NCBI GenBank assembly: GCA_021781115.1
Contig: JAJXXL010000175.1
Location: 1 to 39,877 of the forward strand
Origin: Planctomycetota bacterium
Lineage (GTDB): Bacteria > Planctomycetota > Planctomycetia > Planctomycetales > Planctomycetaceae
Reading direction: 5' to 3'
Length of the DNA: 39,877 bases
Shown: piece after piece, positions 8,994 to 39,877 of the stretch
Layout: each line of letters opens with the position of its first letter
Position numbering within the stretch: position 1 is the stretch's first letter
Position numbers and translations under genes: made by a program
Notes under the pieces: model-generated
The model's database searches: none
Told to the model about the DNA's origin: nothing
What the model saw: only the letters and a program-made list of their open reading frames with translations

Positions 8994-9066
8994 GACAAGA
9001 CCTTTACCCCTACCGGGGGGGTGTGCAATTGGGCGCTACGACCAGTCGCAGCCGACAGGGCGGCAG

Positions 9067-10011: not shown

Positions 10012-10046
10012 TCGTCCGTTGTGCAAATTGCAGAGTGGTTCAGGGG

Positions 10047-11511: not shown

Positions 11512-12372
11512 ATGATCGTCATTCTCGGAGGAATCGTCGTCCTCGCCGCAGTGCTGACCGGGTTCAGCATGGCGGGGGGGCACGTTCACGCCCTGATTCA
11601 TCCTTCGGAATTGGTCACGATCGGCGGGGCGTCGCTGGGCGCCCTGATCATGATGTCGACCAAAAAGGTGCTCACCGACCTGGTCCACAGCCTGATCGGG
11701 GTCATGAAGAACTCGCCGTACAACGATCAAATGTACCGTGAACTGTTCAAATTGACCTACGACCTGATGCGTGTCCAGCGTCGCGACGGGTTGCTCGCAC
11801 TCGAAAACCATATCGTCAACCCCTTTGAAAGCCCGATTTTCGGAAAGTACCCGCGGTTTCTGAAGGACCATCACGCGGTCGAATTCCTGTGCAGCAGCCT
11901 GGCATCGCTGCTCGACGGCGGGGCGACCCCCGAGCAGGTCAGCGAGTTGCTCGAAGCCGAACTGAAGGTGCTTGACGAAGAACATCACGCCCCGATCAAC
12001 GTGTTGAGCAAATCGGCCGACGCGCTGCCGGGTTTCGGCATCGTCGCCGCCGTGCTGGGCATCGTGGTGACAATGGGCGCAATTGACGGACCAGTCGAAG
12101 AAGTGGGCCACAAGGTCGGTGCGGCGCTCGTGGGAACGTTTTTGGGAATTCTCATGTCATACGGGCTGTTCGCGCCCCTGGCCGCCCGAATGGAACTGCT
12201 GGGCGCCACGGAGCTCGCCTTTTTTCGCACGATCGCCACGATCGTGCTGGCCCAGGCGAAAGACTACGCGCCTCGAGTGGCGATCGAACGGGCTCGCCGC
12301 GGAGCGCCCACCGAAGTCCGCCCCAAACGGACCGACATGGATCAACTGTTCCGCGAAGCTGAAGCGGCGTAA
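11512..12372 (+). CDS. motA: Flagellar motor stator protein MotA
   Basis: MIVILGGIVVLAAVLTGFSMAGGHVHALIHPSELVTIGGASLGALI; KSADALPGFGIVAAVLGIVVTMGAIDGPVEEVGHKVGAALVGTFLGILMSYGLFAPLA. ATG at 11512 preferred to the longer track start at 11386. Confidence 0.93.
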   Translation: MIVILGGIVVLAAVLTGFSMAGGHVHALIHPSELVTIGGASLGALIMMSTKKVLTDLVHSLIGVMKNSPYNDQMYRELFKLTYDLMRVQRRDGLLALENHIVNPFESPIFGKYPRFLKDHHAVEFLCSSLASLLDGGATPEQVSELLEAELKVLDEEHHAPINVLSKSADALPGFGIVAAVLGIVVTMGAIDGPVEEVGHKVGAALVGTFLGILMSYGLFAPLAARMELLGATELAFFRTIATIVLAQAKDYAPRVAIERARRGAPTEVRPKRTDMDQLFREAEAA

Positions 12373-22100: not shown

Positions 22101-25100
22101 GAAGCGATCGTGACGACTGGCGAAGTGACCGTGGGGTTGGCGGTATTCTTGTATTCCAGCAGTGTTTTCGTGTTGCCCGCGTTCCCGCTGACCGTCATGC
22201 CGCTTTCGATGCGCACGTCACCCTGCAATTGCACGGTGATCGGCGTTGCCACACCAAACGTCGTGTTGCCGGCAACCAGCGTGATGGCATCCTGCGCGGC
22301 GCCGGCGAGGCTCGCGGCGCCGGTTCCAACCGACACGTTTCCAAAGAACTGCGTACTGGGGGCGCTGCCGGTCGTTCCCCCCGACGATGTGGCGAGGTTG
22401 GAGGCACCTGTAACGGCTTGCTTGAACGCCAGAATGCCCCCGCCGTTGAAATACGTGTTTTGCAGCAACCGTACGTTGTCGTTGTACGTCTGGCCGCCCA
22501 CGGTGGCGACAGTGACTGTGGCCGGCGTTACGCCGACAAAGTTGAATTCCGCCGCCCCGGCCGGCACCCCCGCAATCAGCGCGGCGGGGTCGTCAGTCGT
22601 CAGGCTGAGCAGGGCCGTGGTCGTGCCCACCGGGCCGTTAAAGATTTCATTGCCCGTCGAATTGACGGTCAGGGCAAAACCACCATTGATTGACCTGCCA
22701 AATGTGATATTGGCGCCGCCGGCCGAAGTGCTCGACAACACGGTGTTTTGCAGAAGTTGCACGTCGTCGTTGTACGTCTGGGCCCCGGACGTCGTGACCG
22801 TGAAAGTCGTGGCGCTGGCCCCCAACACACCGAATTGCACAAACGCTCCGGGAACCCCGGCGATCGCCGACGCCGGGTCGTCGGTCGTCAGGCTGGCAAG
22901 CGCCGCCGCATTGCCGATGCGACCCTGGAACAGCTCATTTCCCGCCGAATTGACCGTCAGGGCAAATGCCCCGTTAATCGTTTTGAGAAACGACACCGTC
23001 CCGGCGGCCGTGCTCGACAAGACCGCATTCTGCAAGAGCAGTACGTCGTCATTGTATGTTTGGGCCCCGGTTGTGGTCACAGTAAACGTCGTGGCGTTCG
23101 CCCCGGCGACGTTGAACTGCACCTGCCCCCCGGTTATGCCGGCGGCGAGGTCGTCGGTGGTGAGCGCCGTCAAAGCGGCCATGTTGCCAACCGGCCCGTT
23201 GAACCGCTCATTGCCCGCCGAATCGATCGTCAGGTGAAACGCCCCGTTGACGGTGCTTTCAAAGGTGATCGTTCCGGCGGCCGTGCTGGCGAGCACCGTG
23301 TCCTGGAACAGGGCTACGGCGTCGTTGTATGTCTGATTCCCCGTCGACGTCACGGTGTAGGTTGTCGAATTGGCCCCGGGCACGTTGAACTGGGTCTGCC
23401 CGCCGGGCACGCCGGCGATCAGTGACGCCGGGTCGTCGGTGGTCAGGCTGGCCAGGGCAGCGGTATTGCCCACGCGGCCGTTGAAAACTTCATTGCCTGC
23501 CGAATTGACGGTGAAATTGAAGTCCCCATTTACTGTCGATTCGAACGTGATGGTTCCGGCCGTCGTGCTCGACAAGACCGTGTCTTGCAGTAATGCCACC
23601 GCGTCGTTGTAGGTTTGCGCACCGGTCGTGGCGACCGTAAACGTCGTGGCGTTGGCTCCAGCGACGTTAAACTCGGTTTGACCACCGGGAACGCCGGCAA
23701 TTCCTGACGCGGGGTTGTCGGTCATGAGTTGCGACAGAGCCACGGCGTTGCCCACGCGCCCATTGAAGACGTCATTGCCCGCCGAGTTGACGGTGAAATT
23801 GAAGTCCCCATTTACTGTCGATTCGAACGTGATTGTGCCGGCCGCAGTGCTCGACAGCACAGTGTTGTTTAACAGCGCCACAGCGTCATTGTACGTTTGC
23901 GCTCCGGTCGTGGTCACAGTGAACACCGTGGGCGCCGCCCCCCCGACATTGAATTGCACTTGCCCGCCGGGCACGCCCGCCATGGCCGAGGCCGGGTCGT
24001 CAGTCGTCAAACTGGCCAGTGCCGCCGCATTACCGACCTGGCCGTTCAACACTTCATTTCCCGCCGTATTCAGGGTCAGTCCGAACGCGCCGTTGATCGT
24101 CTTTCCAAAAGTGATCGTGCCGGCCGCGGTACTCGACAGCACGGTGTTGTTGAGCAATTGTACGTCGTCGTTATACGTCTGGCTGCCGGTCGTGGTCACA
24201 GTAAATGCCGCCGGAGTGACGCCGCCAACGTTAAACTGGGTCAAGCCGGCCGGGACACCTGTGAGCAGCGATGCGGGATTGTCAGTGGCCAGGTTGGCCA
24301 GCGCGGCGAGATTGCCCACCCGCCCATTGAAAACCTCATTTCCCGTGGAATTCGCAGTGAGGTTGAATCCCCCGTTGATCGTGTTTTCGAACGTGATCGT
24401 TCCGCCCGCCGTACTCGACAGCACCGTGTTCTGTTGCAGGAGCACGGCATCATTATACGTTTGCGCGCCGGTCGTCGTCACGGTGAACACCGCGGGCGCC
24501 GCGCCGACGACGTTGAACTGCACCTGGCCACCGGGCACGCCGGTAATCAGCGAAGCCGGGTCGTCAGTGACCAGGCTCGCGAGTGCCGCGAGGTTTCCGA
24601 CACGCCCGTCGAAGACTTCGTTGCCCGGCGAATTGACCACCAGTGAGAACCCGCCATTCACGGTGTTGCCAAACGTCACCGTACCGGGCGCCGTAAGAGC
24701 TGAAAGCGTGGTGTTGGCGCTTAAAGTCACCGCGCCGGTATAGGTCTGGGCCCCGCCCGTCGTGACCTGCGCCCCGTTCAGGTCGACTGTACCGGCCGCG
24801 CTCACGCTCGCCGCGCTGACTGCCGCCTTGAACACAACGTCAATCGTTGCATTGCCGGTGCCAGTGACCGACAACGCACCAATCGCGCCATTGGCGCCCC
24901 CGCCTACGGCCCCGGTAAACGTCGTCCCGCCAGTTCCCGCGGCGACAGTTAACGAATACGCCGTCGTGGTCGAATTGTCGATTGTCGAACCGAACAGCAC
25001 TGCACTGTTGGTCGTTGTCAGGACCGTATTCGCACTCAGCACCACAGCCCCGGTGTAGGTTTGCGTGCCGGTCGTCGTCACTGTGCTGCCATTCAGGTCT

Positions 25101-28100
25101 GTCGTGCCCGCAACATTGAGACTGGCCGCATTGACGGCTGCCTTGAACACGGCATCGTCGACCGCATTGCCTGTACCGGTGATCGACAGCGCGGCGATCG
25201 CCCCATCGGCGCCCCCGCCCACGACACCGGTAAAGGTCGCCCCCCCCGTGCCGGCCGCGACTTTTAGCGATTCCGCAGTCGCCGTGGCGTTATCGACCGT
25301 GGAGCCGAACAGCACGGCGCTGTTCGTCGTCGTCAGCGTCGTATTGGTGCTCAGAATCACGGCGCCGGTGTAGGTTTGTGTGCCGCTGGTCGTCACCGTC
25401 GCACCGTTGAGGTCCGATTTGCCCGTCACCGAAACACTGGCCGCGCTGACCGCTGCCTTGAAAACGGCATCATCAGCCGCATTGCCCGTGCCCGTCATTG
25501 ACAACGCGCCGATTGCGCCATTCGCGCCGCCGCCTAGCGCACCGGTAAACGTCGTGCCGCCGGTTCCTGCGGCGACTGTCAGCGATTCGGCAGTTGCCGC
25601 GGCATTATCGACTGTCGAACCGAACAGCACTGCACTGTTGGTCGTTGTCAGGACCGTATTCGCACTCAGCACCACCGCCCCGGTGTAGGTTTGCGTGCCG
25701 GTCGTCGTTACCGTGCCGCCGTTCAAGTCGGTCGTGCCCGCCACGTTCAGGCTGGCTGCCTTGACGGCCGCCTTGAACACGGCATCGTCCAACGCGTTGC
25801 CCGTACCGGTGATCGACAGCGCGGCGATCGCTCCATTGGCACCGCCGCCCACCGCGCCGGTAAACGTCGTGCCGCCGGTTCCTGCCACGACTGCCAGCGA
25901 TTCGGCGGTCGCCGTGGCATTATCGACTGTCGAGCCGAACAGCACCGCGCTGTTGGTGGTCGTCAGCGTCGTCGGCGCGCTCAGCGTGACCGCCCCGGTA
26001 TAGGTTTGGGTGCCAGTCGTCAGAACCGACCCGCCGTTAATGTCGGTGGTGCCTGAAACGGCCAGCGCGATCAAGCTCGCGTTGGACCCGACCGGGCCGT
26101 CAAAGACGGCATTGCCGGTGATTGTCACACTGCTCGCAACCGCCCCCGAATCGACTGTGCTCGCAAACGTGAGGGTACTGCCGGAAAGCGTCGTATTTTC
26201 TTCAAAAGTGACAATGCCCGAGTAGTTCTGCACGCCGGTGGTGATTACGGTTCCGGTAACGAAATCGGTCGAGCCTGTCGACAGGAGGCTGCCGGCGGAG
26301 ATCAGACCGGAAATCGTCGTTTCGGCAGCGAGGAGTGAAACCGCGCCTGTTCCGCCGGCAGTCACGGCGGCCCCGATCGACATCGTCGACGAGGTCAGAG
26401 TAATGTTGCCATTGGGCGTGCTGGTGACGGCGCCGGTCGTATCGATCTCTTTCCCCGCGTCAGTGACAGAAACGCTGCCACCGCCTGATTCGCTGATTCT
26501 GGTGATCGTCGTGACCAGTGCAGTGTTCGTCAAAGTGACATTCCCGCTGGTCGCGTTCGTGGCATTGAACGTCGCGACGCTATTACTGCCATTCAGCACT
26601 GTGCCCGTGGCCGAATCGGTCGTCAACGTAAAGGCGGTATTGATCGTGCCGGTCGTCTCAGTGATTGCGCCCGAAGCATTCAGACTGACACCCGCATCAT
26701 CGTGAACCGTGCCGGCCACTTCAATGTCGCCATTCGTGTTGGTAAACGAAACCAGCCCGCCAGAGTTTTCGGTCACGTTTGCCAAAATCAGCGGCGCTGC
26801 AGTCGTGGGCGAGTTCTCGAGTGTAATTCCGGCACCTGAACCATCGGAACCGGTATAGGTCGCCACGCTGTTGGCGCCGCCCAGGGTTGTCCCCAGGCCC
26901 GAAGCAGACGACAGCGTGCCAGTCGTGATCAGCCTGCCTGCCGCGACGTTTTCAGAAATGATGCTGCCCACGGTCAACGTGATGCCGCCGTTCGCCGTGG
27001 CCGCCGCATCGATGGCGATGTTGCTGCCCGTCAGGCTCAGGCTGTTCGCGCCCAGCCCCAGCGCCCCGGCGACCGTAACGTCCGTGAAACTCTCATTGCC
27101 GTTGATCGTGAGCGCCGACGTCAGGTTGGCCGTGTTGACGCTGATCGTATCGGTGACGACACCCGAACCACTCGTGCCATTGGCGTTGATCGTCAGCGAA
27201 CCGGTGGGGTCGGCGAACGTTGTCATTTCAAATGCCCCGTTGCCGCTGACCAGTTCGACGTTGCCGCCGTTGTCTTGAAGGGTGGCCTGGTCATTTCCCG
27301 CTGGCAGGTTCAGCACAACATTGGCCGCCGTGCCGGTGTTGGTGATCGGCGCCAGGCCGGTGTAGGTGATCGTGTCGGTCAATGTGCCGGCCGAATTGGT
27401 CAGCTTGACGTCGCCGTTATGGCCGTTTGTGTAGTCGTACGTTTCGGTCTTGAATGTGCCGCCGGTGAAGTTCAGCGTGCCCAGATTGTTGAATCCGTTG
27501 AACGTCAGGCCGCCCGAGGGAAGCGGGTCGCCATTTGTATAATCGACCGTCAAGCTGTTGGCCGTTGCCGTGCCGTTGACCACCAGCCCTGTAACGGCGC
27601 TTGGCGAAAAGCTGGCAATCAGCGCGTTTGTGCTGTCGCGGTATTCATCCAAACCGGTGACACTGTTGTATGACAATGTGGCAGCGCCGGCCACGCTCGG
27701 CGCGGGCAGCGTATACGAGGGGTTGACGGCCACTTGAAACGCGGGCGTCGATGTTGCCTTTGTCAACAGGCCGCTGGTGGCGTCGAGCGTATAGCCGGTG
27801 CCAGTCCGATTGATATTCACCCCGCTGAACGTCGCCACACCATTGGAATCATTGGTCGCCCCGCCACCCGACAGCGTGGCGCCGGTCGTTCCCGTACCGG
27901 CCGTGATGCTCAACGTGACCGGGGTGGCACTGTCGTTCGTTAAAACATTGCCGAACTGGTCTTCGACATTCACCGCTACGGCGGGGCTGATCGATGTGCC
28001 GACGGTCGTATTGGAGGGCTCGGTGGCGAATGCGAGTTTCGCCGCGGCACCCGGTACTTCGGTAAGTGTGCCCAGATTCGCCGAAATGGACACACCGTTG

Positions 28101-28684
28101 ATTATGCCAGAAGAGTTGACGATGTTGCCGCTCGTCAGAGGCGCGCCAGCGGTCGGCTCGACCTGAATATTTTCGAACAGCAGCGTGTCGGGAGTCACCG
28201 TCGACGGGAAGTTAATCTGGAAGGCAATTTGACTGGCCGACACAGCAAAGGCGTTGAAGCTCGACCCCACGGCAAGCTGATTGATATTGTTTGCCGCAGT
28301 CGCGTCGCCGGCTGTGATTTTGATATCGGGGGTCGAAGACGTGTTGAATCGGAAACCTGAGGGCGCTTCGAGAATTAAAGTACCGGCCGGACCCACATCG
28401 GAAGGTGCTCCTTCCGTGATCGTGGGGCCGGTGAGCGTCGTATACGCGGCCCCGGGCGCGCCAACCGCCGTATCAGCGGAAATCGAAGTGCCACCCGTGG
28501 CGGGGATGACCGTTGCTGAAAGCAGCGCCCGCTCCTCGAGTCGTTCACAGCGGCGGCCAACGATCACTGAACCGCCCAGCGGGTGCCGCAGTCGGCGGCC
28601 CCGTTCGTCACGCCGCCCCCGGCGGGTTGAAAGTGCACGAAGAACGCTGTTCGGCAAAGCGGCGAGCCAAGAGGTGATCAACAT
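19199..28684 (-). CDS. Giant (3161 aa) repeat-rich surface/adhesin-like protein with LEPR-XLL-like leader, beta-helix region and C-terminal DUF5648-type module
   Basis: Leader RRCERLEERALLSAT; Big/invasin-like VAVNVEDQFGNVLTNDSATPVTLSITAGTGTTGATLSGGG; two tandem repeat families; beta-helix-like NIIDNNVGPGVLVEDSSNNVGEMISQNSIYGNGG; C-term MYRAFDPNNNTHFFTTSLAEFDNALANGW...HYYTTDANERD...GEHLYTAVAGQKD. AAGGA upstream of ATG. Confidence 0.85.
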   Translation of the reverse strand: MLITSWLAALPNSVLRALSTRRGRRDERGRRLRHPLGGSVIVGRRCERLEERALLSATVIPATGGTSISADTAVGAPGAAYTTLTGPTITEGAPSDVGPAGTLILEAPSGFRFNTSSTPDIKITAGDATAANNINQLAVGSSFNAFAVSASQIAFQINFPSTVTPDTLLFENIQVEPTAGAPLTSGNIVNSSGIINGVSISANLGTLTEVPGAAAKLAFATEPSNTTVGTSISPAVAVNVEDQFGNVLTNDSATPVTLSITAGTGTTGATLSGGGATNDSNGVATFSGVNINRTGTGYTLDATSGLLTKATSTPAFQVAVNPSYTLPAPSVAGAATLSYNSVTGLDEYRDSTNALIASFSPSAVTGLVVNGTATANSLTVDYTNGDPLPSGGLTFNGFNNLGTLNFTGGTFKTETYDYTNGHNGDVKLTNSAGTLTDTITYTGLAPITNTGTAANVVLNLPAGNDQATLQDNGGNVELVSGNGAFEMTTFADPTGSLTINANGTSGSGVVTDTISVNTANLTSALTINGNESFTDVTVAGALGLGANSLSLTGSNIAIDAAATANGGITLTVGSIISENVAAGRLITTGTLSSASGLGTTLGGANSVATYTGSDGSGAGITLENSPTTAAPLILANVTENSGGLVSFTNTNGDIEVAGTVHDDAGVSLNASGAITETTGTINTAFTLTTDSATGTVLNGSNSVATFNATNATSGNVTLTNTALVTTITRISESGGGSVSVTDAGKEIDTTGAVTSTPNGNITLTSSTMSIGAAVTAGGTGAVSLLAAETTISGLISAGSLLSTGSTDFVTGTVITTGVQNYSGIVTFEENTTLSGSTLTFASTVDSGAVASSVTITGNAVFDGPVGSNASLIALAVSGTTDINGGSVLTTGTQTYTGAVTLSAPTTLTTTNSAVLFGSTVDNATATAESLAVVAGTGGTTFTGAVGGGANGAIAALSITGTGNALDDAVFKAAVKAASLNVAGTTDLNGGTVTTTGTQTYTGAVVLSANTVLTTTNSAVLFGSTVDNAAATAESLTVAAGTGGTTFTGALGGGANGAIGALSMTGTGNAADDAVFKAAVSAASVSVTGKSDLNGATVTTSGTQTYTGAVILSTNTTLTTTNSAVLFGSTVDNATATAESLKVAAGTGGATFTGVVGGGADGAIAALSITGTGNAVDDAVFKAAVNAASLNVAGTTDLNGSTVTTTGTQTYTGAVVLSANTVLTTTNSAVLFGSTIDNSTTTAYSLTVAAGTGGTTFTGAVGGGANGAIGALSVTGTGNATIDVVFKAAVSAASVSAAGTVDLNGAQVTTGGAQTYTGAVTLSANTTLSALTAPGTVTFGNTVNGGFSLVVNSPGNEVFDGRVGNLAALASLVTDDPASLITGVPGGQVQFNVVGAAPAVFTVTTTGAQTYNDAVLLQQNTVLSSTAGGTITFENTINGGFNLTANSTGNEVFNGRVGNLAALANLATDNPASLLTGVPAGLTQFNVGGVTPAAFTVTTTGSQTYNDDVQLLNNTVLSSTAAGTITFGKTINGAFGLTLNTAGNEVLNGQVGNAAALASLTTDDPASAMAGVPGGQVQFNVGGAAPTVFTVTTTGAQTYNDAVALLNNTVLSSTAAGTITFESTVNGDFNFTVNSAGNDVFNGRVGNAVALSQLMTDNPASGIAGVPGGQTEFNVAGANATTFTVATTGAQTYNDAVALLQDTVLSSTTAGTITFESTVNGDFNFTVNSAGNEVFNGRVGNTAALASLTTDDPASLIAGVPGGQTQFNVPGANSTTYTVTSTGNQTYNDAVALFQDTVLASTAAGTITFESTVNGAFHLTIDSAGNERFNGPVGNMAALTALTTDDLAAGITGGQVQFNVAGANATTFTVTTTGAQTYNDDVLLLQNAVLSSTAAGTVSFLKTINGAFALTVNSAGNELFQGRIGNAAALASLTTDDPASAIAGVPGAFVQFGVLGASATTFTVTTSGAQTYNDDVQLLQNTVLSSTSAGGANITFGRSINGGFALTVNSTGNEIFNGPVGTTTALLSLTTDDPAALIAGVPAGAAEFNFVGVTPATVTVATVGGQTYNDNVRLLQNTYFNGGGILAFKQAVTGASNLATSSGGTTGSAPSTQFFGNVSVGTGAASLAGAAQDAITLVAGNTTFGVATPITVQLQGDVRIESGMTVSGNAGNTKTLLEYKNTANPTVTSPVVTIASSFVAVTNLQITGGLGTAGDGVAFDNTAERDNVVLTSDWIHGNAQAGVRVGVAGQAVVHSLFYLQSSTIENNQGVNSTTAGVAAVNGGVVLGAVKNARIGGSSGTSNIIDNNVGPGVLVEDSSNNVGEMISQNSIYGNGGMTGVGIELDGQKEDAANSQVIATVSAPFASKLQYNSGNRINDLSAIGTAATQAGPNQLLNTPEINYAYMVSPTLMQVQFSVPVGVVGGVNVEFFLADAEGRQGQTYLGNTLYSRAGQGQGVVDVGVPVALPAGMTTLNPGTMIVATATDVNGDTSEFSRATSINPNPTLIGAANYGYIFTPGAKNPQGNQTVTFQDGGGNVLASGPYGEQPVLNYSWDISGVLWRLATVAYPDSSPATFDSHSLTNDEFGFYYVDGTSTSNSGTGTSTGAAVTGAVKGVAPSLGTAQNPAYAATALAAANIGIVRPFNSSATDTFNAPGPLAGSTTFSTMTTNAPIGFYLVRNASSAFLLTGPAKENGNVLPNGTAPADQLALTDSQVLSGAPVTQNQLPVAARTGIYPNATNAAPNSAFTNIATAFFSFSAANPDRTHNADGTINPNGQPLSHVGQGSDQIIVNSSNPPNPYQATLTTLTNQNRPFLVNSPSQYGNLANGTAGGMQLYLENQYEYPGFDPNNRATWNVESATFQNPVIQIDDLTQKPVSLTVSSPSVSVPITSSPPSTTTVPAGEMLMYRAFDPNNNTHFFTTSLAEFDNALANGWRDETTGQPSFAVYSTQVAGAVPLFRLYDPNAGLHYYTTDANERDSLVNQGWSFEKIEGYLDPAASADGSTEVYRLYNTITGEHLYTAVAGQKDAILAQFPGIWVQNASLGFAFAIDVGTSLPASSAAETAAIQSAPEQAADLSTATVSSTATIVGGAASSLAVNGANSLAPAGSASASASLDAPGGTANVVADGSTPLTATTRADSTSGLDSFWTQVSLRLGNSAAGILG
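22385..24625 (-). repeat. Tandem array B: eight ~94-aa (mostly 282-bp) coding repeats
   Basis: GNEVFNGRVGNxAALASLTTDDPASxIAGVPGGQxQFNVxGAxxTTFTVTTTGAQTYNDAVxLLQNTVLSSTAAGTITFExTINGxFxLTVNSA. Starts at ~24625, 24343, 24061, 23779, 23497, 23215, 22942, 22654; copy 6 is 91 aa, copy 7 is 96 aa. Confidence 0.95.
24788..26047 (-). repeat. Tandem array A: four 105-aa (315-bp) coding repeats
   Basis: Unit boundaries at 26047, 25732, 25417, 25102, 24787 (TD(I/L)NG...TTGTQTYTGAV...FGSTVDN...FKAAVxAAS). The shadow antisense ORFs at 25065, 25380, 25695, 26010 show the same 315-bp spacing. Confidence 0.95.
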
Positions 28685-29089
28685 CGGTGTGAGTCCTTGG
28701 TGGTATTCAATCCGTTTGCGTGGTTGAGTTCATCGCAAAATCGTGACTTCGTTTCGATGCGTCTGGATTCGAGCTGCCGTTCGGGGAAGGCTCGACTTTG
28801 GTTCGCGCCGTGAGTGGTGCATTGGGTTTGGTGCGGGCCCATCGAGATCGCCCCCGGTGTTCATCTTCCAAACCTGTGCCCGTCCGTGGAAGACATTCTA
28901 AGCACACCCGATGCCCAAACGGCATACGATTGTGCACCCGCCAACGCTCCGTCGATAACCCCTCGCGGCAGTGGCGAAATCTGATTCGCTATCAATGCTC
29001 TACGACTGTAGCTGAGCCAAGACCAACCAGCGATCGCCCTGTTGGTCCCCGTTGAGCACACCGAATCGCTACAACCATCACGTCTTACC

Positions 29090-29115
29090 GAATCTGATGC
29101 AAATTACGCAGATTC
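29090..29115. repeat. Perfect 7-bp inverted repeat GAATCTG-12 nt-CAGATTC
   Basis: gaatctg atgcaaattacg cagattc in the intergenic region upstream of the giant gene. Confidence 0.5.
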
Positions 29116-29798
29116 ATGGATTCATTTAACCCGGTACGCAGTCGCGATTCAAGATAAAACCTGCTCAAACCAGAAATTTGTCGGATTCCGTAACTTGACC
29201 AGGATTTGACGAACTGCATGCGTGACGCTGCCGGCCTCAGTATCATCTCACGTTACAAGTCGATGCGAATGTCGCAACATGTCACCAGCCCTTTTGGCAG
29301 ATGAACCCAAACTCGATCCTGACGCCCCTGTAGACGACGCCTCACTATTTCACAAGCGACTCCCGACGTGGCGACGCGAAACCGATCTCAACCGCGTTTG
29401 CTCGTTGCCATGCGGAACACACCCGGTCCCTGGCAAGGACCAACCTGACGGCGACTTGGCCGAACATTGCATCGTCAGCCACAACATAACCATTTGCCGT
29501 ATTGATGGTTAGACCATGACGATCGTCCGCCGGTGCGCGTCGGCCGAAGCGCCTCGCACGAACTCTGCGAATTCACCGACGGTGACCTGGTCGCCCTGAC
29601 GATGATTGCCGCAATCGCGGGCGGCTCGCTGGCGATGGGGGCCAGACCACTGATTTCGTACGCGGCTCAACATGTCGATCACCGCGCATCGTCAGCCGTT
29701 TACAATGAATTCACGATCAGGCCGCATTCCGCCGCCTGACGCCGCGTCGCATGATTTACGACTGTGTGCGAAACACCTAGTATATTTTTTATACAGCT

Positions 29799-29827
29799 AT
29801 TATATAGGTACTTATTGAAAGTGACAG
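29799..29827 (-). promoter_or_regulatory. Candidate sigma70-type promoter on the minus strand (CTGTCA-17 nt-TATAAT)
   Basis: Reverse complement gives CTGTCA (4/6 to TTGACA), 17-nt spacer, perfect TATAAT, inside an AT-rich island (29776-29820). Confidence 0.3.
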
Positions 29828-30137
29828 GCTGCCCGTGGCCAAAACTGGCTTACGCCGTTTTTTTCGGCGTTGCGGCAGTGTTTCCCGACATGGTTGCGTC
29901 TGGAACCGCGCATCCTTTGTCTCGCCTTCCGGCAACAAATCGGGCATTTTTTCTATCATCGGAGCGATGCGGCCGTTAGAATCAAAAAACTGGCGGTTGT
30001 TGAATCTTGGGCAGGACTCGGTCGAAGTTTTGCAGGTCGCCAGGTGGTTCTGAATCTGACGATTACGTGCGTGTTGATTTGCCGGGCCGACGATTTCCAC
30101 CGCTCGGCTGGTCATCGGGTGGGGAGACGACTCGGGT

Positions 30138-33100
30138 ATGCTGGTTCGTGGTCAGATTCTCGACGGTCGCTGGGAGGTCGATTGCAAAATCGCCGAAGGG
30201 GGGCATGGTGCGATTTACCGCGGCATTGACCGGCGCGGCCTCGAAGACGAAGGGGTCGCGATCAAAGTCATGAAGGCGGAAGGCGCCGTCGAACTGGCCG
30301 CTTTCAAAAGCGAGGCGCTGCTGGCGCAGAAATTTCGCCATACCAACGTCGTGCGCGTGCTCGATTACGGGCCGAATGCGGCGGATGCGAATGTTCCGCC
30401 GTTCCTGGTCATGGAATGGCTCGAAGGAAAAACTCTCAGCAGACTGATCGGCCGGCTGGAGGGCGACAGCATTTGCCGGCTGGTCGAGCAGGTGGCGTCG
30501 GCGTTGCAGCAGGCACACCGCAACAACCTCGTGCACCGCGATTTGAAACCGCTAAACATTATGCTGGTCCATGCGGGAGCCGAAGATGAGCGATTCGTGC
30601 TGCTCGATTTCGGAATTGCCACGAAGACCGATGCGTCGAAGACGCTCCGCAACGAGGCAGGCAAGGGGCTGGGCACGCTGGTTTACATGGCGCCCGAGCA
30701 ATTCCGGGAGCGCTGCGATCCTCGTAGCGACATTTATTCCTTCGGTGTGATCCTGTTTGAAGTGCTGACCGGCGTTGTGCCATTTCCTTTCACCGGCCGG
30801 ACGATCACGGCCATTCCCAACTTCCTGCGCACGCTGGAAGAAACCCCCCCGCCACGGTTACGCGATTTGGCCCCCGGGTTGGACGTTGCCCCGGAAATCG
30901 AAGCGCTGTTGCACCGCTGTCTGGCAAAACGCCCCGACGAGCGGCCCCAGTCGATGAAGGATGTCGCCGACGCATTCCTGCGGGATTTTCAGCCAGAACG
31001 CTACGTGCCGCAACCGCCTCCCCCACCGCCTTCGACGGCGGAAATGTCGGTCTATGGCAGCCACGAACGGCCGGCCTCTGACGCTGATCTGACCGTGGCC
31101 GCATCCGATCAGGTCTTGGCCGATTCCGATGACGTGTTGGCGGCGAATCGGCGAAACGCGACGGCGGGTTCGGATCTTGCAGACCCGTTTCCGCGAGTCA
31201 GCGATGACCCGGCCATGAACACCGCAATCCATGCCGATCGCTCGGGATCGGGTTTGAAACTCGATTCACCGGAGCCGATTTCTCGACTGTCGCTGCCGGA
31301 CACGGGCGCCTTGAATCATGAGCGTGATGGCACCCAAAGGGACGCGCTACCCCGGCCCGAAGTCGCACAGCGCGCCGAGCAACGGTTGGCGAATGCCGCG
31401 GCGACGCTGACCCCCAACACCGAGCTTCCCACGCCAACGTCCCGCGCCGGAACGGGTCTGCAACACATGCCGGACCACGCGCCCGACGCCGCCGAGCAAT
31501 CGCTCGCCGCATTCAGCGAATTCGACGATCAATTTGTATTCCGCGACAAACACAGCGGGAGACGGCGCCGCGCCGCAGGTGCGGCGCTGGGGCTTGCGGC
31601 GTTACTGATTGCGGCCGTTCCGTTGGCGCAGGCCGTGATCATTCCCACCCGAGTGGAGTCGCTGCTGGCTGCAGGCGATCACCCCGCGGCACTCGCCTGC
31701 CTTGAATCCCAGAATCGGATGTCGATGCTGCTGATTGACCCCGCCCCGCTGCGAAGGAGGATTCGCGAGGCGTGGTTTGTACGCGGCTGCGACCTGTTTG
31801 AAAAAGATGCAAAATACGCCGACGCCCTGCAAGGCTTTACGGCGCTTGTCGAAGCATATCCCAAGGAGGCCGAGGCGGCGGCCATTCGTGAACTGGCCCA
31901 GAAATTTGCCGCCGACCATTTCGAGATCGTCGCCGCCGAAGTGCACAAGCTGCAGGCTGCGGGCAACCATGCGGCCGCGTGGGACCGGCTGCGCGCCCCC
32001 GACGTGTCGGCGGCGCAGCAGGTGATTCAGGACATTGCACACGGGCCGGCTGAAACGGCCAGTTTGGCTGATTTGCAGCGCCATGTGCGGCAATTGTGGC
32101 TGAGACACGCGGCAACGCTGCCTGAATGCGAGCAGGTGCGCGAGTACGAGGGCCTGCGCGAGCGGGCCTCCGCTGATGAACGCCCCCGGCTTGAGTTCCG
32201 CCTGCATCGGGCGCGGGCGGTCTGCCTGCTGGGGCAGAACGACGCGCCCCGGGCGATCGACGAATTCACGCAGGCACTGAATGCCGACCACCAGGTCGAC
32301 GACGCGCTGCGGCGCGACATTGCCCTGCAACTGGCTGCGGCCCGACTCAAGGCCGCCCCGATGGCGACCGACGGCGAGACGGCACTCGACATGTTCCAGG
32401 CCGCCGTCGCCGGCCTGCGGCAGTTGCTTCACGAAACGCCAGACCTTCAGGCGGCGCGCGAAAAACTGGCGACGGCGCAGCTCGCCTGGGCACGACAGTT
32501 ATACAAGAACGTTCCCGGAAACTGGTCGGTTGCGGCGGCACGGTCGTCAGCAGATGCGGTGTGCCTGTTGCAGGCTGCACAAGCGATACCGGCATTGCCA
32601 GCCGGTGAACGCCGGGAAATCGAACAACTTCTGAGCGAAATTCACGAAACGGCGTGCGCCCAGGGAAACCTGCACGGGCTGCAGGGGGACCGCGAAGCCG
32701 AAAATGCCGTCCTGAAGAATGGTGCGATTGACGACGATGCGAATGCCGCGGCAGACAAGGAATATGCAATTTCCAATTGGGCGTTTGGCGTGGCCATTCT
32801 CGCGCGGCCCGATCAATCGCCGGTCATTTTTCTGGAACGCAGCCACGTACGATACTCGGGCTCCAGGCCCGACTACGAAGGCACGATCCAGGATCTGAAG
32901 AAATACCTCGACCGGACAAACATACCAGACGGCGCCGGCGGGGCCGACAAACTGCTGCGGGCCAAAGTTCTCGCGCGAATCGCTCTGATCTATTCGACCG
33001 CCCCGCCCCGGTTTCAAAACCCGCAACAGGCTCTGATACTGGCCAAACAAGCGTTTGAAATCGCCCCCAAAAGTGCCGATGTCTTGTTCTCGCTGGCCAC

Positions 33101-33296
33101 CACCCACGCGGCGATGCATCAGTTTTCCGCGGCGCTCGATTACCTGATCGATGCCGAGCAATTCGATAAGGACAAGACGCTGGCAGGCAAGATCAACGAT
33201 TATCGCGCCCGCTATGAAAACGAGGAACTTCGGATCGACCCCCGTGACAACTCGGAAACCGCCGAACCGGCGCCGTGCCCGCCCGAACATCCCTGA
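30138..33296 (+). CDS. Transmembrane Hanks-type Ser/Thr protein kinase with C-terminal TPR-like region
   Basis: IAEGGHGAIYRG, VAIKVMKAE, LVHRDLKPLNIML, LLDFGIA, YMAPEQF, RSDIYSFGVILFEVLTG; single TM AAGAALGLAALLIAAVPLAQAVII at ~31575-31645; alpha-helical TPR-like C-terminus. Confidence 0.92.
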   Translation: MLVRGQILDGRWEVDCKIAEGGHGAIYRGIDRRGLEDEGVAIKVMKAEGAVELAAFKSEALLAQKFRHTNVVRVLDYGPNAADANVPPFLVMEWLEGKTLSRLIGRLEGDSICRLVEQVASALQQAHRNNLVHRDLKPLNIMLVHAGAEDERFVLLDFGIATKTDASKTLRNEAGKGLGTLVYMAPEQFRERCDPRSDIYSFGVILFEVLTGVVPFPFTGRTITAIPNFLRTLEETPPPRLRDLAPGLDVAPEIEALLHRCLAKRPDERPQSMKDVADAFLRDFQPERYVPQPPPPPPSTAEMSVYGSHERPASDADLTVAASDQVLADSDDVLAANRRNATAGSDLADPFPRVSDDPAMNTAIHADRSGSGLKLDSPEPISRLSLPDTGALNHERDGTQRDALPRPEVAQRAEQRLANAAATLTPNTELPTPTSRAGTGLQHMPDHAPDAAEQSLAAFSEFDDQFVFRDKHSGRRRRAAGAALGLAALLIAAVPLAQAVIIPTRVESLLAAGDHPAALACLESQNRMSMLLIDPAPLRRRIREAWFVRGCDLFEKDAKYADALQGFTALVEAYPKEAEAAAIRELAQKFAADHFEIVAAEVHKLQAAGNHAAAWDRLRAPDVSAAQQVIQDIAHGPAETASLADLQRHVRQLWLRHAATLPECEQVREYEGLRERASADERPRLEFRLHRARAVCLLGQNDAPRAIDEFTQALNADHQVDDALRRDIALQLAAARLKAAPMATDGETALDMFQAAVAGLRQLLHETPDLQAAREKLATAQLAWARQLYKNVPGNWSVAAARSSADAVCLLQAAQAIPALPAGERREIEQLLSEIHETACAQGNLHGLQGDREAENAVLKNGAIDDDANAAADKEYAISNWAFGVAILARPDQSPVIFLERSHVRYSGSRPDYEGTIQDLKKYLDRTNIPDGAGGADKLLRAKVLARIALIYSTAPPRFQNPQQALILAKQAFEIAPKSADVLFSLATTHAAMHQFSAALDYLIDAEQFDKDKTLAGKINDYRARYENEELRIDPRDNSETAEPAPCPPEHP

Positions 33297-33494
33297 ATAC
33301 CCGCGCTGCCAGTGCCTTGAACCCCACCAGGCTGCTTTTGCAGCCACGTGCGCCCCGAGAGACCAGGCGAGCGCCGCCCACCCACTCAAACCGGCAGATT
33401 ATCGCTGCCGTCCGGCAATGACAGGTTTCCGTTTCGCCGACATTGGGCCAAGGAGTGCGTCTGGATCCCAAAAGGGGCGTCAATCGACGCCGCG

Positions 33495-35768
33495 TCAGTT
33501 GAACAGCCGCACCGTGTTTCGGATGTCCTGTGCGGTTTTCGTGCGGTCACTAGTGGGCGCAATCAAGCGGGCCGGGCGGTCCCACTGGGCGGCCGAACGC
33601 AGGCTGTCGGTCAACCGCTGCGGCCGATCGCGGCGGGCCGAGGCCAGGCTCGGTTTCGTGCGTGGCCGCCGCTCGGGCGGCAGATCAAGGAACTGCTCAT
33701 AGTATTTCGCTTCGGGCGAATCGGGCCAGTTCAGCATGATCGTCAGGATTTCTTTCGTCGCCGCGTCGACATTTTCGACGGTTGGTTTTGCTTGCGCCGC
33801 GCCGAAATCACCCAAGTGCAACCCGGCGAGCATCCACAGCGCGCGCAGCGCACGCTGCGTATAACCCAACTGTTGCTTTTGGGCCAGTTGCTCGTAAATT
33901 GCCACGGCGGCGGCAGGATCCTTGTCGATGAACAGGGCGTAATCGGCTTCGATTTCCAGGCGCATGGCGTCTTCGGTGACTTTCGCACGGAACGTATGGG
34001 CTTTGGCGAGTGCCTGCCGAGCGTTTTCGTTGCTGAACCCGCCCGCCTCGGTGTTGAAAACGTGGTTCGCCACCAGGTACCAAGCCCAGGGGTTTTCAGG
34101 ATCGGTGCGCAACACTTCGTCAATTTCCCGCCGGGCCTCGAGCAAGGACTTGCGGCCCTGGTCGTCATTGCGTTTGAAGGCCAGCGCCGCTTCAAGGTGA
34201 AATTCGCCCCAGAACAGATGATCGTCGGCAGCGGCCGGGGGGCGCTGGTTCGCAATCACCAGACCGGTTCGGGCTAAGGGCCCCGACGCCTGCGACAATG
34301 CAACCAGCGCGTGTTGCAACAGGTCGTTTCGCGATGGGCCGGCCACCTCGAGGGTCGCCGGTTTGCCGCCGTTGGCGTCAAAAATGTAAAGCCGGCAACC
34401 GGCGCTGGCATCATTGGCGCTGGCATAGTCGCCCCAGACCACGAACCGGGCGTTCAACTCGTCGGCCAGCGCTTTGAGCACGTCGTCATCCGGGGCCTGT
34501 GCGGCGGCCTTGGCTTTGGCACCTTTTTTCCAGGCTTCTTCGACCTGCCAGATCAACGCCACGTCGAAACCCGGAACCTTCATCAGCTGCGCACACAACT
34601 TCGACGCGAAGGCGGTCGGCGGCTGGCTCGGCGCAAAGTCGATCTGGCGCAGCGGCATCGGCGGCAGAACCACGACCCGCACGCGGTTCTCGTTTTCGAA
34701 TTTCTCCAAGTCGGATTTGTCGAACGGTTTGAGTTCCTGATAACTGGTAGCCGCCGCTGGCTGCCGGCCGAGCGCGTCGAGCATCCCGGCGTCGTTCAGG
34801 TCGAAGACCGAACCGCGGGTCTGATCAGCCAGGGTTCGGGCAAAATCGTTCCATCGAGCCCGCAATCCAGCCGCGGTGGCAGCCAGAACTTCATTGTCGC
34901 GTACATCGGCGCCGCGCCCGAAATCCGACTGGCACAGCACGGCATGCACGGTAATGCCCTTTTGAGCGGCGAGTGCCGCGAGATCCTGGGTTTTGTGCGC
35001 CCGGAGCGGCTGACGAATGCCGCGGGTGCGCTCATTCCGGGCATTCAGGGCAGGGTCCATCCACACGGCTTCGTCGAAGGGCGGCGCGTCGCCCGCGAGA
35101 ATGACAAGCCGGGTCACGCCGCCCCGCCGCCCCGGTTCGTCGACCGGGGTCCAATCGAGCTCTGTGAGGGCCGCGTACAACCCGCGATCGACCTGCTCTT
35201 CAAAATACGGCTCGCCCGCCATGAGCGGAATGGAATTTAACCGGGCGATGATTTCGTCCATACCAGGCTTGTTGTGCGCAACATCGATAAACCGCCGCGT
35301 CAGCACTTCGACAGCCGCGGCTCCGCCCGGCGCTGAAAGCAAGTCGCGGTAGACGACGACCGCCACCCCCAGTTCTTCGACCGAATTATTCTCGTTCTGT
35401 TTGAGCGCGCGGTCCAGCGATTCGACCCATTTCGGCAGGTCGTCCTTCAATGACAGGATGTCGCGGCCCATGCTGTCGGTGCCGTCGATGACAAATGCAA
35501 TTTCGATGCGTTTTTTGAAATCCTGCAGTCCGAATGCCGTGCGCTGATAAAACCCGCGGCTGCGGTCGTAGGGCTTGATGATGCCTTGCGGCTGAATCGC
35601 AAACCCAATCGCCCGCCCCAGCGTTCCAGCAGCCGCCGGGGAGCCGCCCAATGAACCGACCGCGACAGCCGCCGATTGGGCCTGGCACTCGGCGGCAACA
35701 GCAAGCATCGCGATGAACCCGCTCGACGCCAGACAACAATTGACCACGATACATTTCCGGCGAAACAT
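33495..35768 (-). CDS. Predicted exported von Willebrand factor A domain protein with TPR-like C-terminus
   Basis: N-terminal signal-like CCLASSGFIAMLAVAAECQAQSA; VWA start KRIEIAFVIDGTDSMGRDILSLKDDLPKW with DxTxS MIDAS variant; C-terminal helical repeats (WAWYLVANHVFNTEAGG...ALAKAHTFRAKVTEDAMRLEIEADYALFIDKDPAAAVAIYEQLAQKQ). Confidence 0.75.
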   Translation of the reverse strand: MFRRKCIVVNCCLASSGFIAMLAVAAECQAQSAAVAVGSLGGSPAAAGTLGRAIGFAIQPQGIIKPYDRSRGFYQRTAFGLQDFKKRIEIAFVIDGTDSMGRDILSLKDDLPKWVESLDRALKQNENNSVEELGVAVVVYRDLLSAPGGAAAVEVLTRRFIDVAHNKPGMDEIIARLNSIPLMAGEPYFEEQVDRGLYAALTELDWTPVDEPGRRGGVTRLVILAGDAPPFDEAVWMDPALNARNERTRGIRQPLRAHKTQDLAALAAQKGITVHAVLCQSDFGRGADVRDNEVLAATAAGLRARWNDFARTLADQTRGSVFDLNDAGMLDALGRQPAAATSYQELKPFDKSDLEKFENENRVRVVVLPPMPLRQIDFAPSQPPTAFASKLCAQLMKVPGFDVALIWQVEEAWKKGAKAKAAAQAPDDDVLKALADELNARFVVWGDYASANDASAGCRLYIFDANGGKPATLEVAGPSRNDLLQHALVALSQASGPLARTGLVIANQRPPAAADDHLFWGEFHLEAALAFKRNDDQGRKSLLEARREIDEVLRTDPENPWAWYLVANHVFNTEAGGFSNENARQALAKAHTFRAKVTEDAMRLEIEADYALFIDKDPAAAVAIYEQLAQKQQLGYTQRALRALWMLAGLHLGDFGAAQAKPTVENVDAATKEILTIMLNWPDSPEAKYYEQFLDLPPERRPRTKPSLASARRDRPQRLTDSLRSAAQWDRPARLIAPTSDRTKTAQDIRNTVRLFN

Positions 35769-35873
35769 GATTCACGCTCCTCCCCCAAAGACGGTGCGTT
35801 TCCCAAACTGAGATTAACTTCGCGCCCGGGCCGATGCCAGAGCAATTATCGATTTCCAGGCGCCATCGCGCAC

Positions 35874-38800
35874 TCACCGGCGACCGCGCAGCAGTTGTCC
35901 CTCCGGCGGAAAAGTGACCGACCGCCTCACTTGTGGCCGCTGTGACTTTTTGTCGCCCGGGCGCAGCATTTTGCCGTCACGGCGTTCGCCGCCGCGAAAT
36001 GCGCCGAGCATTTCCGGCACGCGGCGTTCGACGTAGGCGCCGAGTTCCTCGATCGACGACGCCGCGGCGCCCCGCCGGCCTTCGAGCGCCTCGATGACTG
36101 CGGCTGTGAACAGGCCGTGGCCGGTTTTTTGCCCCGCGTGCATGAGCACATCGTCAAATTCGAACGAGATCTCGCCCGCGTCGCAGGCGAGCAGCACCTG
36201 GGGGCCGAATTGCAGACTGCCGGAGTTGAGCAGGCGGGTTTGATCCATTTCTGCAGAACCGGAATGGCAGGCGTCGATAAGCAACAGGGCCGGGCAGGCG
36301 AGTCGATTCAGGCGCTCGTAGAGGTCCCGCCCCCTGATTGCCGTCGATTCGAGATTGTCGCCAGCGTCTTCGACGAGGTAGTAAAACTCCGGCTGCGCTT
36401 CGACGGCGCCGGGCGCCGCGCGAAACTGGTTTTGGCCGTGCCCGGCGAATAGCACGCAAACGAAGTCATCGGGTTCGACTTCGGCCTCAAGGTCGTCGAG
36501 AGCTTTCAAAATATTGTCGCGTGTGGGCGCGGGCACGCCGCTGGGGGCCCCCGCGCCGTTGGCCAGCACGGCGGCGACGACCTGGTCGAATACCGGGCGG
36601 TCGCCCCCCCCCTCGGTCGCCGCGAGCTGTTTCAGCGCCTGGCCGAGAAACCAGGCGTCGTTGGCTGCACTCCTCAGCGGCTGCAGGTCGTGGCGGGGGG
36701 TGCGAAACGAATTGACGCCGACGCCGAGGTAATGCAACCGCCGCCGCGCGGGCGCGGCCTCGACCTGAAACAACCGCACTTCCGGCAGGGCAAACGCCCC
36801 CTGCCCCGGTTCGCCGACCTCGACCGTGACCACAATCTTGTTCAAACCGCCGCGCAGCACGCTGGCGGGCACGGGCACGCGCACGTCGGCCTGGCTCGAT
36901 TTGAGCGGGTGCGCCGCCAACCGCCGACCGTTGCACCAGACATGCAGCGTCAACTCGCCGCGGGCATCGCCACGGACGGCGTGCAGAGTCAGGTCGAAAT
37001 CGGACTTGTCGCGCAGGTCATGCACGCCCTCGACCTGAATCGCAGGCAGAATCTGGTCATCGGCCAACCCCTTGTTTCGCACGTAATCCTGAATGATCGA
37101 CCGGTCGTGGCGTTCGATGACTTCCAGGATTTTGCGGCGATAATCGAATTTGGTCCAATATTGTTCGGGCACAGTGTTCTTCACGTTTTCGATGCGAAAC
37201 ACATTCTGATCGCGTTTGCTGAACAGCATGTTGAGCGGGGGGTTGATATGCCAGTACATCTGCGCATCAATCAGCGCAATCGACGAATCGTAAACGCCCT
37301 GCGGCGTCCACACGACCCAGTTTGAGGCGTCTTGCAATGGCAGCAGGGTCCACAAGGCGTCGTGCGTCACGTTCGTGGCAACGGTGTACTCTGACTGGCT
37401 GCTGCGAACCGTGACCATCAGCTCGCGACCAGGAATTGGCTGCCCGAGTTCCAGCGGCCAGTCAGCCACCGGAACGTCGTGGCCCGCCGACTTGACGCCG
37501 AAGATCTCGGCCCCTTTTTCAAACCCCGCCGCCCAACCGGGGCTGCCGGATGCGACTTCGTCGACGAACAGTTTGCGGCCGTTCGAACGAAATCGTACCC
37601 CCAGTTCCAGGCGGTGTTCGGACGACAGGCCGAGGTCTTGCAGGCCCCAGGCGCTGATCGTGCCGTCGTCTGATCCTGACACCAGCCACGAGCCATCCTG
37701 GGCGGTCGCCAGGCAGGTCACACGGCCTTCATGCCCCAGAAAACTTCGCAGCAGCGCCCGTCGCAACTCGCGGGGGTTCTGTTCGAGCCCCTTTTGCAGG
37801 GCCGCTTCGTCCCACACGAGGATTCCCGCAACGTAACCGATGGCGGCGAACTTTCGCGCCCCATGTCGAAACCGGGTATAGCACAGGGGAAGGTTGCCGT
37901 TAAGGAGCGGAATCGGACCAACTCGCCCCGATTCCAGGTAAAAATCGCCTCCACGCGGCGCGATGATAATGTCGCGCGTGCCGAACAACCTAGGCGGCGG
38001 CGACTTGCCACTCAGCGGCACCGCTTGCAACCGCCCGCGAATGCTCCGCCCGTCGAGCGTGAATTGCGTGGTTGGGGGCGGGGGCGGCAAGAGTTCTTCA
38101 AAGGCCCCTGTCGCGAATTGAATCGACAATTCACCGGGTCGCGCCCCCTGCACCAGCGCCACGTTGTTTATCGGGCTGCCGCCGTCGCCCGCGCCGGCCT
38201 CGGGCGGGTATTGGCACAGCAAATGGCCGTCGGCGATCGACCAGACGCGAAGCTGATAGCGGGCCGGGGCGCCAGACGTGCGCGGCCGGTCGATGCCGGC
38301 GGCGGCCAGATACCGCCCATCGGCCGAACAGGCCAGTGCCATGACGCGCGATTCAAAGTCCCCACGTTCAAATGCGATGCCGGCACGGCCAAGCTGCTCG
38401 ACCCCGGCCACGACGCCGGGCCGCGGCAGCCATTCCTTGAAGAACCCGGCCACCAGCCGGTCAGACTGCCCCACGCGAACCAGCTTGTCGATGCCGGTAT
38501 GTAACGTCTGCCGCACCAGCAGTTTGTCGTCCAAGCGATGCAGCGTGACATGAGCCCCGGCGGGAATCGGCCCGACGGTTTCAATTTTTGCGCCCGAGGA
38601 ATTGTCGATGACCCATAGATTCAGAACGCCTTCGACCGCAAGATTTCGTGTGGCCGCAGAATCAAGCGGCAACAGATCACTCCACTTTGCAGCGAGGATT
38701 TCGGCCGGTTGCAGGGGTTGCGCCGACACCGCGAATTTATACGACAGCCGGTGGCCCGTCGAGTTGGTCCAATACGTTCCGCGCGGCGCTCGGTCAGCCT

Positions 38801-39647
38801 GAATGAGTTTGCCGTCGCGATGAAGCGCCAGGCGATCGTCCTCAGCCAGAGCCGCGGCCCAAGCGGCCTCGCCAGTCCAGGCAAACGCCGTCGCCGTGCG
38901 ATTCAACCGGGCTGAGAGGGCCGCATCTTCGACTTCGCGGGCGACATTCCACACGCGAACCTGTCCCTCAGCGGTTCCTGAAACAGCCGCGAGCCTGTCG
39001 CCCGCAGTGTTGAATGCCAACTGCCGAACGGCATCGACCTCGGCAGACAGGATCGTCTGCAACTCGGTGCGATCTCCGGCGGTGCGCCACAGCGCGACCC
39101 GGGCGTCTTTCAAACCGGCGGCCCCGTTGTGCGCGACGGCTAGAATGTCGCCTTGCGGGCGGAACGCCACCGCAGTGACGAAATGCTGGCGGGCGCTGAC
39201 TTCGGCCGGCAGCAAGACCTGAACCAGCGCCGGTCGAGCCAGATCAAGGAGCTCGACCAGCGGCTCTTTAATGCCCATGCCACCAAACGCCAGGCGGCGG
39301 CAATTGCCGCTGGCGTCGGGTTGCACATCGAGTGCGAAAATTGTGCCGCGCTGATCGGCCGCAACCGGCCAGCGGATGACGTCTGCCGGGTGCAATTCCA
39401 TTTGTCCGCCGGCAGCTCGCCGTACCTGCCATTTTCTGACGACCTTGTCGTCGCCGGTTGAAAACAGGCAATCGCCACCTTCGTCTCTCGAAAACATCAA
39501 TTGCCGCACAACGCCCGATGGAGACTGCGAATTGGGCCGGAGTATAGGCCGGCCCATCACGTCACGCCGCATCTGCCCCACCGACGTTTCAAACGTCGAA
39601 AGCAAAACCACGATACCCCCCAAGATCGTCGTCAGACTCCGCGACAT
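35874..39647 (-). CDS. Predicted exported WD40 repeat + PDZ-like + caspase-fold (peptidase C14) protein
   Basis: Signal-like MSRSLTTILGGIVVLLSTFETSVGQ; WD-like VTCLATAQDGSWLVSGSDDGTISAWGL; PDZ-like VDEVASGSPGWAAGFEKGAEIFGV; caspase His motif CVLFAGHGQ and Cys motif LLLIDACHSGSA. ATG at 39647 preferred to the track start at 39692. Confidence 0.85.
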   Translation of the reverse strand: MSRSLTTILGGIVVLLSTFETSVGQMRRDVMGRPILRPNSQSPSGVVRQLMFSRDEGGDCLFSTGDDKVVRKWQVRRAAGGQMELHPADVIRWPVAADQRGTIFALDVQPDASGNCRRLAFGGMGIKEPLVELLDLARPALVQVLLPAEVSARQHFVTAVAFRPQGDILAVAHNGAAGLKDARVALWRTAGDRTELQTILSAEVDAVRQLAFNTAGDRLAAVSGTAEGQVRVWNVAREVEDAALSARLNRTATAFAWTGEAAWAAALAEDDRLALHRDGKLIQADRAPRGTYWTNSTGHRLSYKFAVSAQPLQPAEILAAKWSDLLPLDSAATRNLAVEGVLNLWVIDNSSGAKIETVGPIPAGAHVTLHRLDDKLLVRQTLHTGIDKLVRVGQSDRLVAGFFKEWLPRPGVVAGVEQLGRAGIAFERGDFESRVMALACSADGRYLAAAGIDRPRTSGAPARYQLRVWSIADGHLLCQYPPEAGAGDGGSPINNVALVQGARPGELSIQFATGAFEELLPPPPPTTQFTLDGRSIRGRLQAVPLSGKSPPPRLFGTRDIIIAPRGGDFYLESGRVGPIPLLNGNLPLCYTRFRHGARKFAAIGYVAGILVWDEAALQKGLEQNPRELRRALLRSFLGHEGRVTCLATAQDGSWLVSGSDDGTISAWGLQDLGLSSEHRLELGVRFRSNGRKLFVDEVASGSPGWAAGFEKGAEIFGVKSAGHDVPVADWPLELGQPIPGRELMVTVRSSQSEYTVATNVTHDALWTLLPLQDASNWVVWTPQGVYDSSIALIDAQMYWHINPPLNMLFSKRDQNVFRIENVKNTVPEQYWTKFDYRRKILEVIERHDRSIIQDYVRNKGLADDQILPAIQVEGVHDLRDKSDFDLTLHAVRGDARGELTLHVWCNGRRLAAHPLKSSQADVRVPVPASVLRGGLNKIVVTVEVGEPGQGAFALPEVRLFQVEAAPARRRLHYLGVGVNSFRTPRHDLQPLRSAANDAWFLGQALKQLAATEGGGDRPVFDQVVAAVLANGAGAPSGVPAPTRDNILKALDDLEAEVEPDDFVCVLFAGHGQNQFRAAPGAVEAQPEFYYLVEDAGDNLESTAIRGRDLYERLNRLACPALLLIDACHSGSAEMDQTRLLNSGSLQFGPQVLLACDAGEISFEFDDVLMHAGQKTGHGLFTAAVIEALEGRRGAAASSIEELGAYVERRVPEMLGAFRGGERRDGKMLRPGDKKSQRPQVRRSVTFPPEGQLLRGRR

Positions 39648-39877
39648 TTGACCCTCGGTCCGATGGATTTCGACGAACGTTGAATTCGTCACGCGTGCAA
39701 GGACAGGTTGGCAGTAGAAAAAGCGTGGCGACGCTGGAAGCGAGTCGCCATGTTTGCGATCGACCCAGGGGGCTGCACCGTGGGAGACATCTGACGCCCT
39801 CCTGGCAGGCCCCTTTATCCTGAAGCGTCGACCGCACCCGCCAACTCATGGATTCTAGCCGGATTGGGATTTATGTT

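Follow-up and report, generated by a model that had tools for sequence, protein, structure and literature searches.

A conserved VWA–caspase gene pair with probably exported products beside a transmembrane Ser/Thr kinase in a planctomycete genome

Discussion of caspases in bacteria centres mainly on cytosolic roles in cell death or phage defence. A locus of a Planctomycetota bacterium, in which genes for a caspase-like protein, a VWA protein and a transmembrane Ser/Thr kinase stand side by side, raises the question of whether the three form one module and on which side of the cytoplasmic membrane their products would act. The window, namely the whole stretch of 39,877 nucleotides that was analysed, corresponds to a complete contig (C77); the genome has 591 contigs and 5.74 Mb in total. 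The three genes are as follows:

30138..33296, + strand: transmembrane Ser/Thr kinase, 1052 aa (ORF; PF00069, 1.5e-37)
33495..35768, − strand: probably exported VWA protein, 757 aa (ORF; family profile A1/A2)
35874..39692, − strand: probably exported WD40/PDZ-like/caspase protein, 1272 aa from a GTG start (ORF; Pfam)

These coordinates and strands, taken from the ORF list and the sequence, agree with those of the first-pass annotation. The layout that it described, with co-oriented caspase and VWA genes about 105 bp apart that converge on the kinase, was likewise recovered: the VWA and caspase genes are co-directional across a gap of 105 bp, and the kinase and VWA genes are convergent across 198 bp. 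A single transcript for all three genes is excluded because the kinase is oriented against the other two, and no promoter- or terminator-like signal that would settle co-transcription was seen in the gaps. No match was obtained in Rfam and tRNA searches of the window.

The conservation of the locus was analysed in related genomes using a VWA-family profile. Of the 398 genomes of the class, 19 (20 counting G010) had full-length members (E below 1e-50); the other genomes gave generic VWA matches, none better than 8.5e-23, and the phylum sample outside the class yielded no member of the family. Eighteen genomes were evaluable after leaving out G170 and G010, in which the locus is broken at contig ends. 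In 15 of these 18, the VWA gene has a WD40-PDZ-caspase gene no more than 3.5 kb away: the two genes adjoin or overlap in 13 genomes, and G040 and G269 have the caspase gene within that distance; no such gene lies near the VWA gene of G030, G244 and G258. A second collection comprised 27 named loci, including Rhodopirellula, Rubripirellula, Roseiconus and others. By our own reading of the neighbourhoods, a caspase gene is present in 21 of the 23 evaluable loci (L118 and L140 are without one), and the two counts are not independent because the named loci overlap partly with the first genome set. The pair is also present in cultured species, among them Rhodopirellula sallentina and Rubripirellula obstinata. 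In most relatives, the caspase and VWA genes are divergent, but they are co-directional in the window and in its nearest pair-carrying relative, G276 (L104); given this difference in orientation, the adjacency either outlasted rearrangement or had more than one origin. The VWA-linked members need 3 changes on the caspase tree, compared with 12.4 when labels are shuffled, a clustering to which close relatives contribute. The VWA–caspase pair is a conserved two-gene unit across several families.

The VWA protein was divided into the following features:

35777..35783, − strand: Shine–Dalgarno-like GGAGGAG, 8 nt before the start codon (sequence)
35679..35768, − strand: signal-peptide-like N-terminus, residues 1–30 (...AAECQA^QS; sequence, homologs)
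34749..35531, − strand: VWA domain, residues 80–340 (homolog Pfam matches, fold match, alignment)
34269..34721, − strand: alpha/beta middle domain, residues 350–500, like the periplasmic part of CadC (weak Foldseek match, 7.9e-4)
33687..34271, − strand: helical TPR-like domain, residues 500–694 (model and fold matches)

The whole protein had no Pfam match at 1e-3, and it is recognisable as a VWA protein through its homologs, 8–10 of 14 of which are matched by VWA models. Its MIDAS-like residues (D95-x-T97-x-S99, D142 and D227) are invariant in the 14 homologs, and its structural model, of modest confidence (mean pLDDT 69.5), matches an integrin VWA domain at 1.9e-4. TPR models match the helical region in some homologs. 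The homologs and the model bear out the VWA/TPR assignment that was made from sequence. The middle domain (residues 350–500) gave no Pfam match; together with the helical part, it resembles the periplasmic side of CadC, where an alpha/beta part is likewise joined to a helical one, according to the weak fold match. The window protein differs from CadC in carrying a VWA domain before this part and in having no DNA-binding domain.

For the caspase protein, ATG 39647 is the better start, giving MSRSLTTILGGIVVLLSTFETSVG^QMRR, and the following features were determined:

39576..39647, − strand: signal-peptide-like N-terminus from the ATG start (...TSVG^Q; sequence, homologs)
38703..39575, − strand: first WD40 region, about residues 40–330 (Pfam)
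37623..38375, − strand: second WD40 region, about residues 440–690 (Pfam)
37293..37640, − strand: PDZ-like stretch, residues 685–800 (sub-threshold PDZ_2)
36717..37043, − strand: beta-sandwich region before the caspase domain, about residues 884–992 (AF2 model, modest confidence)
35922..36800, − strand: caspase domain (C14, metacaspase-like), residues 965–1257 (PF00656, 7.7e-14; fold and profile matches)
36438..36440, − strand: catalytic His1085 (FAGHGQ), invariant in 24 aligned caspases
36267..36269, − strand: catalytic Cys1142 (DACHSG), invariant in 24 aligned caspases

A WD40-PDZ-caspase protein with an intact His/Cys dyad had been proposed. The WD40 repeats (PF00400, 1.4e-20), the C14 domain (52.4 bits for the isolated domain against Pfam Peptidase_C14, curated threshold 21.4) and the dyad all hold, whereas the PDZ part stays sub-threshold, with PDZ_2 at 0.018 (15.8 bits) in the window and 6e-4 (20.5 bits) in the homolog L038, both below the curated 27 bits. 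The AF2 model of the C-terminal half is of modest confidence (mean pLDDT 59.8); its best matches among solved structures are metacaspases, and the sequence-profile matches are likewise. The Asp two residues before the catalytic Cys (D-x-C; DAC in the window) is kept in 23 of the 24 aligned caspases. In metacaspases, this Asp lines the pocket for basic P1 residues. Arg/Lys specificity is therefore predicted, and by this analogy the caspase-like protease is probably Arg/Lys-specific. The protein shares the C14 fold family, the dyad and the D-x-C Asp with metacaspases and orthocaspases (T. brucei MCA2, Arabidopsis MC4, C. glabrata), and differs from them in that the protease lies behind WD40 and PDZ-like parts, is probably exported and is paired with one specific, probably exported VWA protein. 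It scored 37.3 bits against the EACC1-associated caspase family (NF047832), below the curated 140. A search of the full caspase protein against the genome contigs gave no match, and a plasmid search returned weak caspase-domain matches at most. The PF00656 search of the own genome missed the window copy and is unusable for counting caspases.

Export of the VWA and caspase proteins had been suggested from apparent signal peptides. These N-termini are visible by eye and kept in most homologs of both proteins, so the suggestion stands, although the evidence is supporting only: a crude signal-peptide rule was positive for 15 of 17 VWA proteins, 25 of 35 caspases and 1 of 26 kinases (negative control), and also for 118 of 249 other neighbouring proteins (47% background). 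N-terminal helices of caspase homologs have been noted as possible signal peptides in the available passages of PMC3501461, in which WD40 is among the commonest partner domains of prokaryotic caspase homologs; a VWA gene partner or a kinase triad is absent from those passages. Export of the VWA and caspase proteins is likely from their sequences, and an extracytoplasmic placement of the kinase, VWA and caspase proteins is plausible.

The kinase was resolved into three parts:

30165..30977, + strand: kinase domain, residues 10–280 (Pfam match, motifs)
31587..31643, + strand: single TM segment, residues 484–502, with RRRR before it (hydropathy)
31644..33293, + strand: TPR-like region past the TM segment, probably extracytoplasmic (TPR_2 6.1e-5, below the cut-off)

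The motifs HRDLKPLN, DFG and VAIK are all present. Of the kinase with one TM segment and a C-terminal TPR-like region in the first-pass annotation, the kinase and the TM segment are supported, and the TPR part is weak. By the positive-inside rule, the post-TM region would lie outside the cytoplasm; it has essentially no homolog among 58 relatives. The PknB/Stk1 PASTA kinase model (NF033483) reached 207 bits of the 450 needed and matched the kinase part only, the ectodomain here being TPR-like.

A transmembrane kinase that converges on the VWA gene, as in the window, was found in Pirellulaceae and one other family, and in 12 of 19 evaluable named loci by our own reading of the neighbourhoods. 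These triad kinases form one family, and those of most of the named loci (L116–L139) have HCD in place of HRD. Several of them align in the kinase domain only; their ectodomains therefore differ, which suggests that ectodomains have been swapped. The window kinase shares the place, orientation and topology of the triad kinases. Its match to them is about 50 bits along a short segment, a lower value than for any other kinase in the comparison, whereas kinases of other loci reach 147 bits. Among the genome-wide matches listed to the window kinase, G049 has 25 other kinases without its triad kinase, and the triad kinases of G340 and G393 are absent as well. On these two grounds, the window kinase was rejected as an ortholog of the triad kinases. 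The expectation that the three genes would be neighbours in related genomes thus holds for the VWA–caspase pair and for a Pirellulaceae triad with a transmembrane kinase, and fails for this particular kinase.

The pair alone could then be the functional unit, with the window kinase a chance neighbour, one of about 40 in the genome. The 43 kinase matches in 5.74 Mb, the missing orthology, the convergent orientation with its separate transcript and the pair of G276, which has no kinase beside it, all point this way. The same 43 matches imply that a kinase would be expected within 3 kb about 4–6% of the time, and a kinase was found within this distance of the WD40-PDZ-caspase gene in 12 of 27 genera, in loci that were picked by similarity to the window caspase and not at random. 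This is far above expectation, the window kinase takes the place, orientation and topology of its Pirellulaceae counterparts, and the ectodomains of triad kinases vary too; we regard a chance neighbour as the less likely reading. The association of kinases with WD40-PDZ-caspases is real in general, and judged from the sequence comparisons, the kinase link in this window is probable. WD40 genes often stand beside Ser/Thr kinases in Planctomycetes (PMC5587647), and kinase–WD40 fusions occur here as well, such as the triad kinase of L099; the passages available from that paper differ in that a VWA partner and the triad are absent.

G030 and G258 belong to two different families; in both, genes for an FGE-TPR protein and a trypsin-like peptidase come after the VWA gene in place of the caspase gene. 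Two such neighbourhoods are as follows:

L036, 8457-14627: VWA gene, then FGE-TPR and trypsin-like genes (gene neighbourhood)
L102, 8714-14490: VWA gene, then FGE-TPR and trypsin-like genes (gene neighbourhood)

Both peptidases have a signal- or anchor-like start and keep GDSGG, with TAAHVV in one and TVAHVV in the other. A VWA protein beside a protease, both predicted to be exported, is a recurring theme.

This exchange of caspase for trypsin echoes the vWA-MoxR ternary conflict systems (Kaur et al. 2020, PMC7159879), which are defined by MoxR, join VWA to a peptidase of either the caspase or the trypsin kind, one standing in for the other, and have FGE-like proteins at some loci. Caspase and VWA domains co-occur in such systems, the PADLOC caspase model matches the window protein at 5.6e-10, and the distribution is patchy (about 5% of class genomes). 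The module might accordingly be a defence or programmed-cell-death system whose protease, activated on infection or damage, would kill or disable the cell. We consider this improbable. The VWA and caspase proteins are likely exported, and no MoxR AAA+ ATPase was detected among the window ORFs scanned or the flanking genes of relatives scanned; no VMAP component was recognised with models of a general kind, and the loci checked showed no recognisable defence system. The best PADLOC kinase match (PD-T4-6 and other defence kinases, 1.1e-62) spans residues 8–304, the kinase part, and such matches are probably generic ones to the kinase domain. In one Pirellulaceae genus, the locus sits between stable chromosomal flanks and not in a variable defence island: an NtrC-type regulator was found in 7 of 7 genomes and a RecQ-type helicase in 6 of 7, at 84–94% identity, and the PADLOC models that these flanking genes matched are generic ones for helicases and regulators.

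With plausibly extracytoplasmic proteins and no MoxR partner or recognisable defence system found at the loci checked, an envelope reading is better supported than cytosolic abortive infection, as had been proposed; the proposal of one three-gene module holds in part, the window kinase being no ortholog. With slightly better than even confidence, we favour a two-gene module in which the VWA and caspase proteins work jointly beyond the cytoplasmic membrane as an envelope-side protease system, with the kinase as a looser partner. More tentatively, this might be an extracytoplasmic signalling module of the caspase family, built from an exported VWA adaptor and an exchangeable exported protease (metacaspase- or trypsin-like), with a transmembrane kinase of exchangeable ectodomain as its readout. 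In such an envelope-side module, the VWA–CadC-like–TPR protein may be a scaffold subunit that binds in a metal-dependent way, recruiting or sensing a target may fall to the WD40/PDZ-like part of the caspase protein, and the metacaspase-like domain may cut envelope proteins after Arg or Lys. The one-TM Ser/Thr kinase with its extracytoplasmic repeat domain could report the state of the VWA–caspase complex to the cytoplasm, a role that would fall to the kinase beside the pair in many relatives and to a different kinase in the window. Envelope-stress or surface signalling by regulated proteolysis is the likeliest use; the 'execution' role once suggested is conjecture. No description of the VWA–caspase pair or the triad was found in open-licence papers. 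If the favoured reading is correct, caspase proteolysis would be placed in the bacterial envelope through a probably exported caspase and one specific exported partner, and the pair would offer a testable system for the roles of many planctomycete caspases and kinases.

Other arrangements were observed at the loci of relatives. Two genes from the pair of G276, a 1698-aa protein (L104, 3529-8625) combines a VWA domain with a TM segment and a degenerate caspase-like part; it matched the caspase profile and was rejected as an active caspase partner, being a VWA protein without the dyad motifs. Three other WD40-caspase loci (L049, L058, L059) have a DUF4384 gene that separates the kinase gene from the caspase gene. 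Paired caspase-domain genes occur in other genera of the class (L045, L050, L051), with an adjacent kinase in L045 and L051.

Within the window, 1.45 kb upstream of the kinase (28685-30137) has no evident gene, a lower G+C (0.561) and no Rfam match. It is preceded by a 3161-aa protein (19199-28684) that has a DUF5648 domain and tandem repeats at the DNA level (about 282 and 315 bp), and the neighbouring 906-aa protein (16265-18985) also has a DUF5648 domain. A cell-shape neighbourhood (6214-12372) is among the further neighbours of the module:

6214-8415: penicillin-binding protein
10047-11120: MreB
11386-12372: MotA/ExbB-type protein
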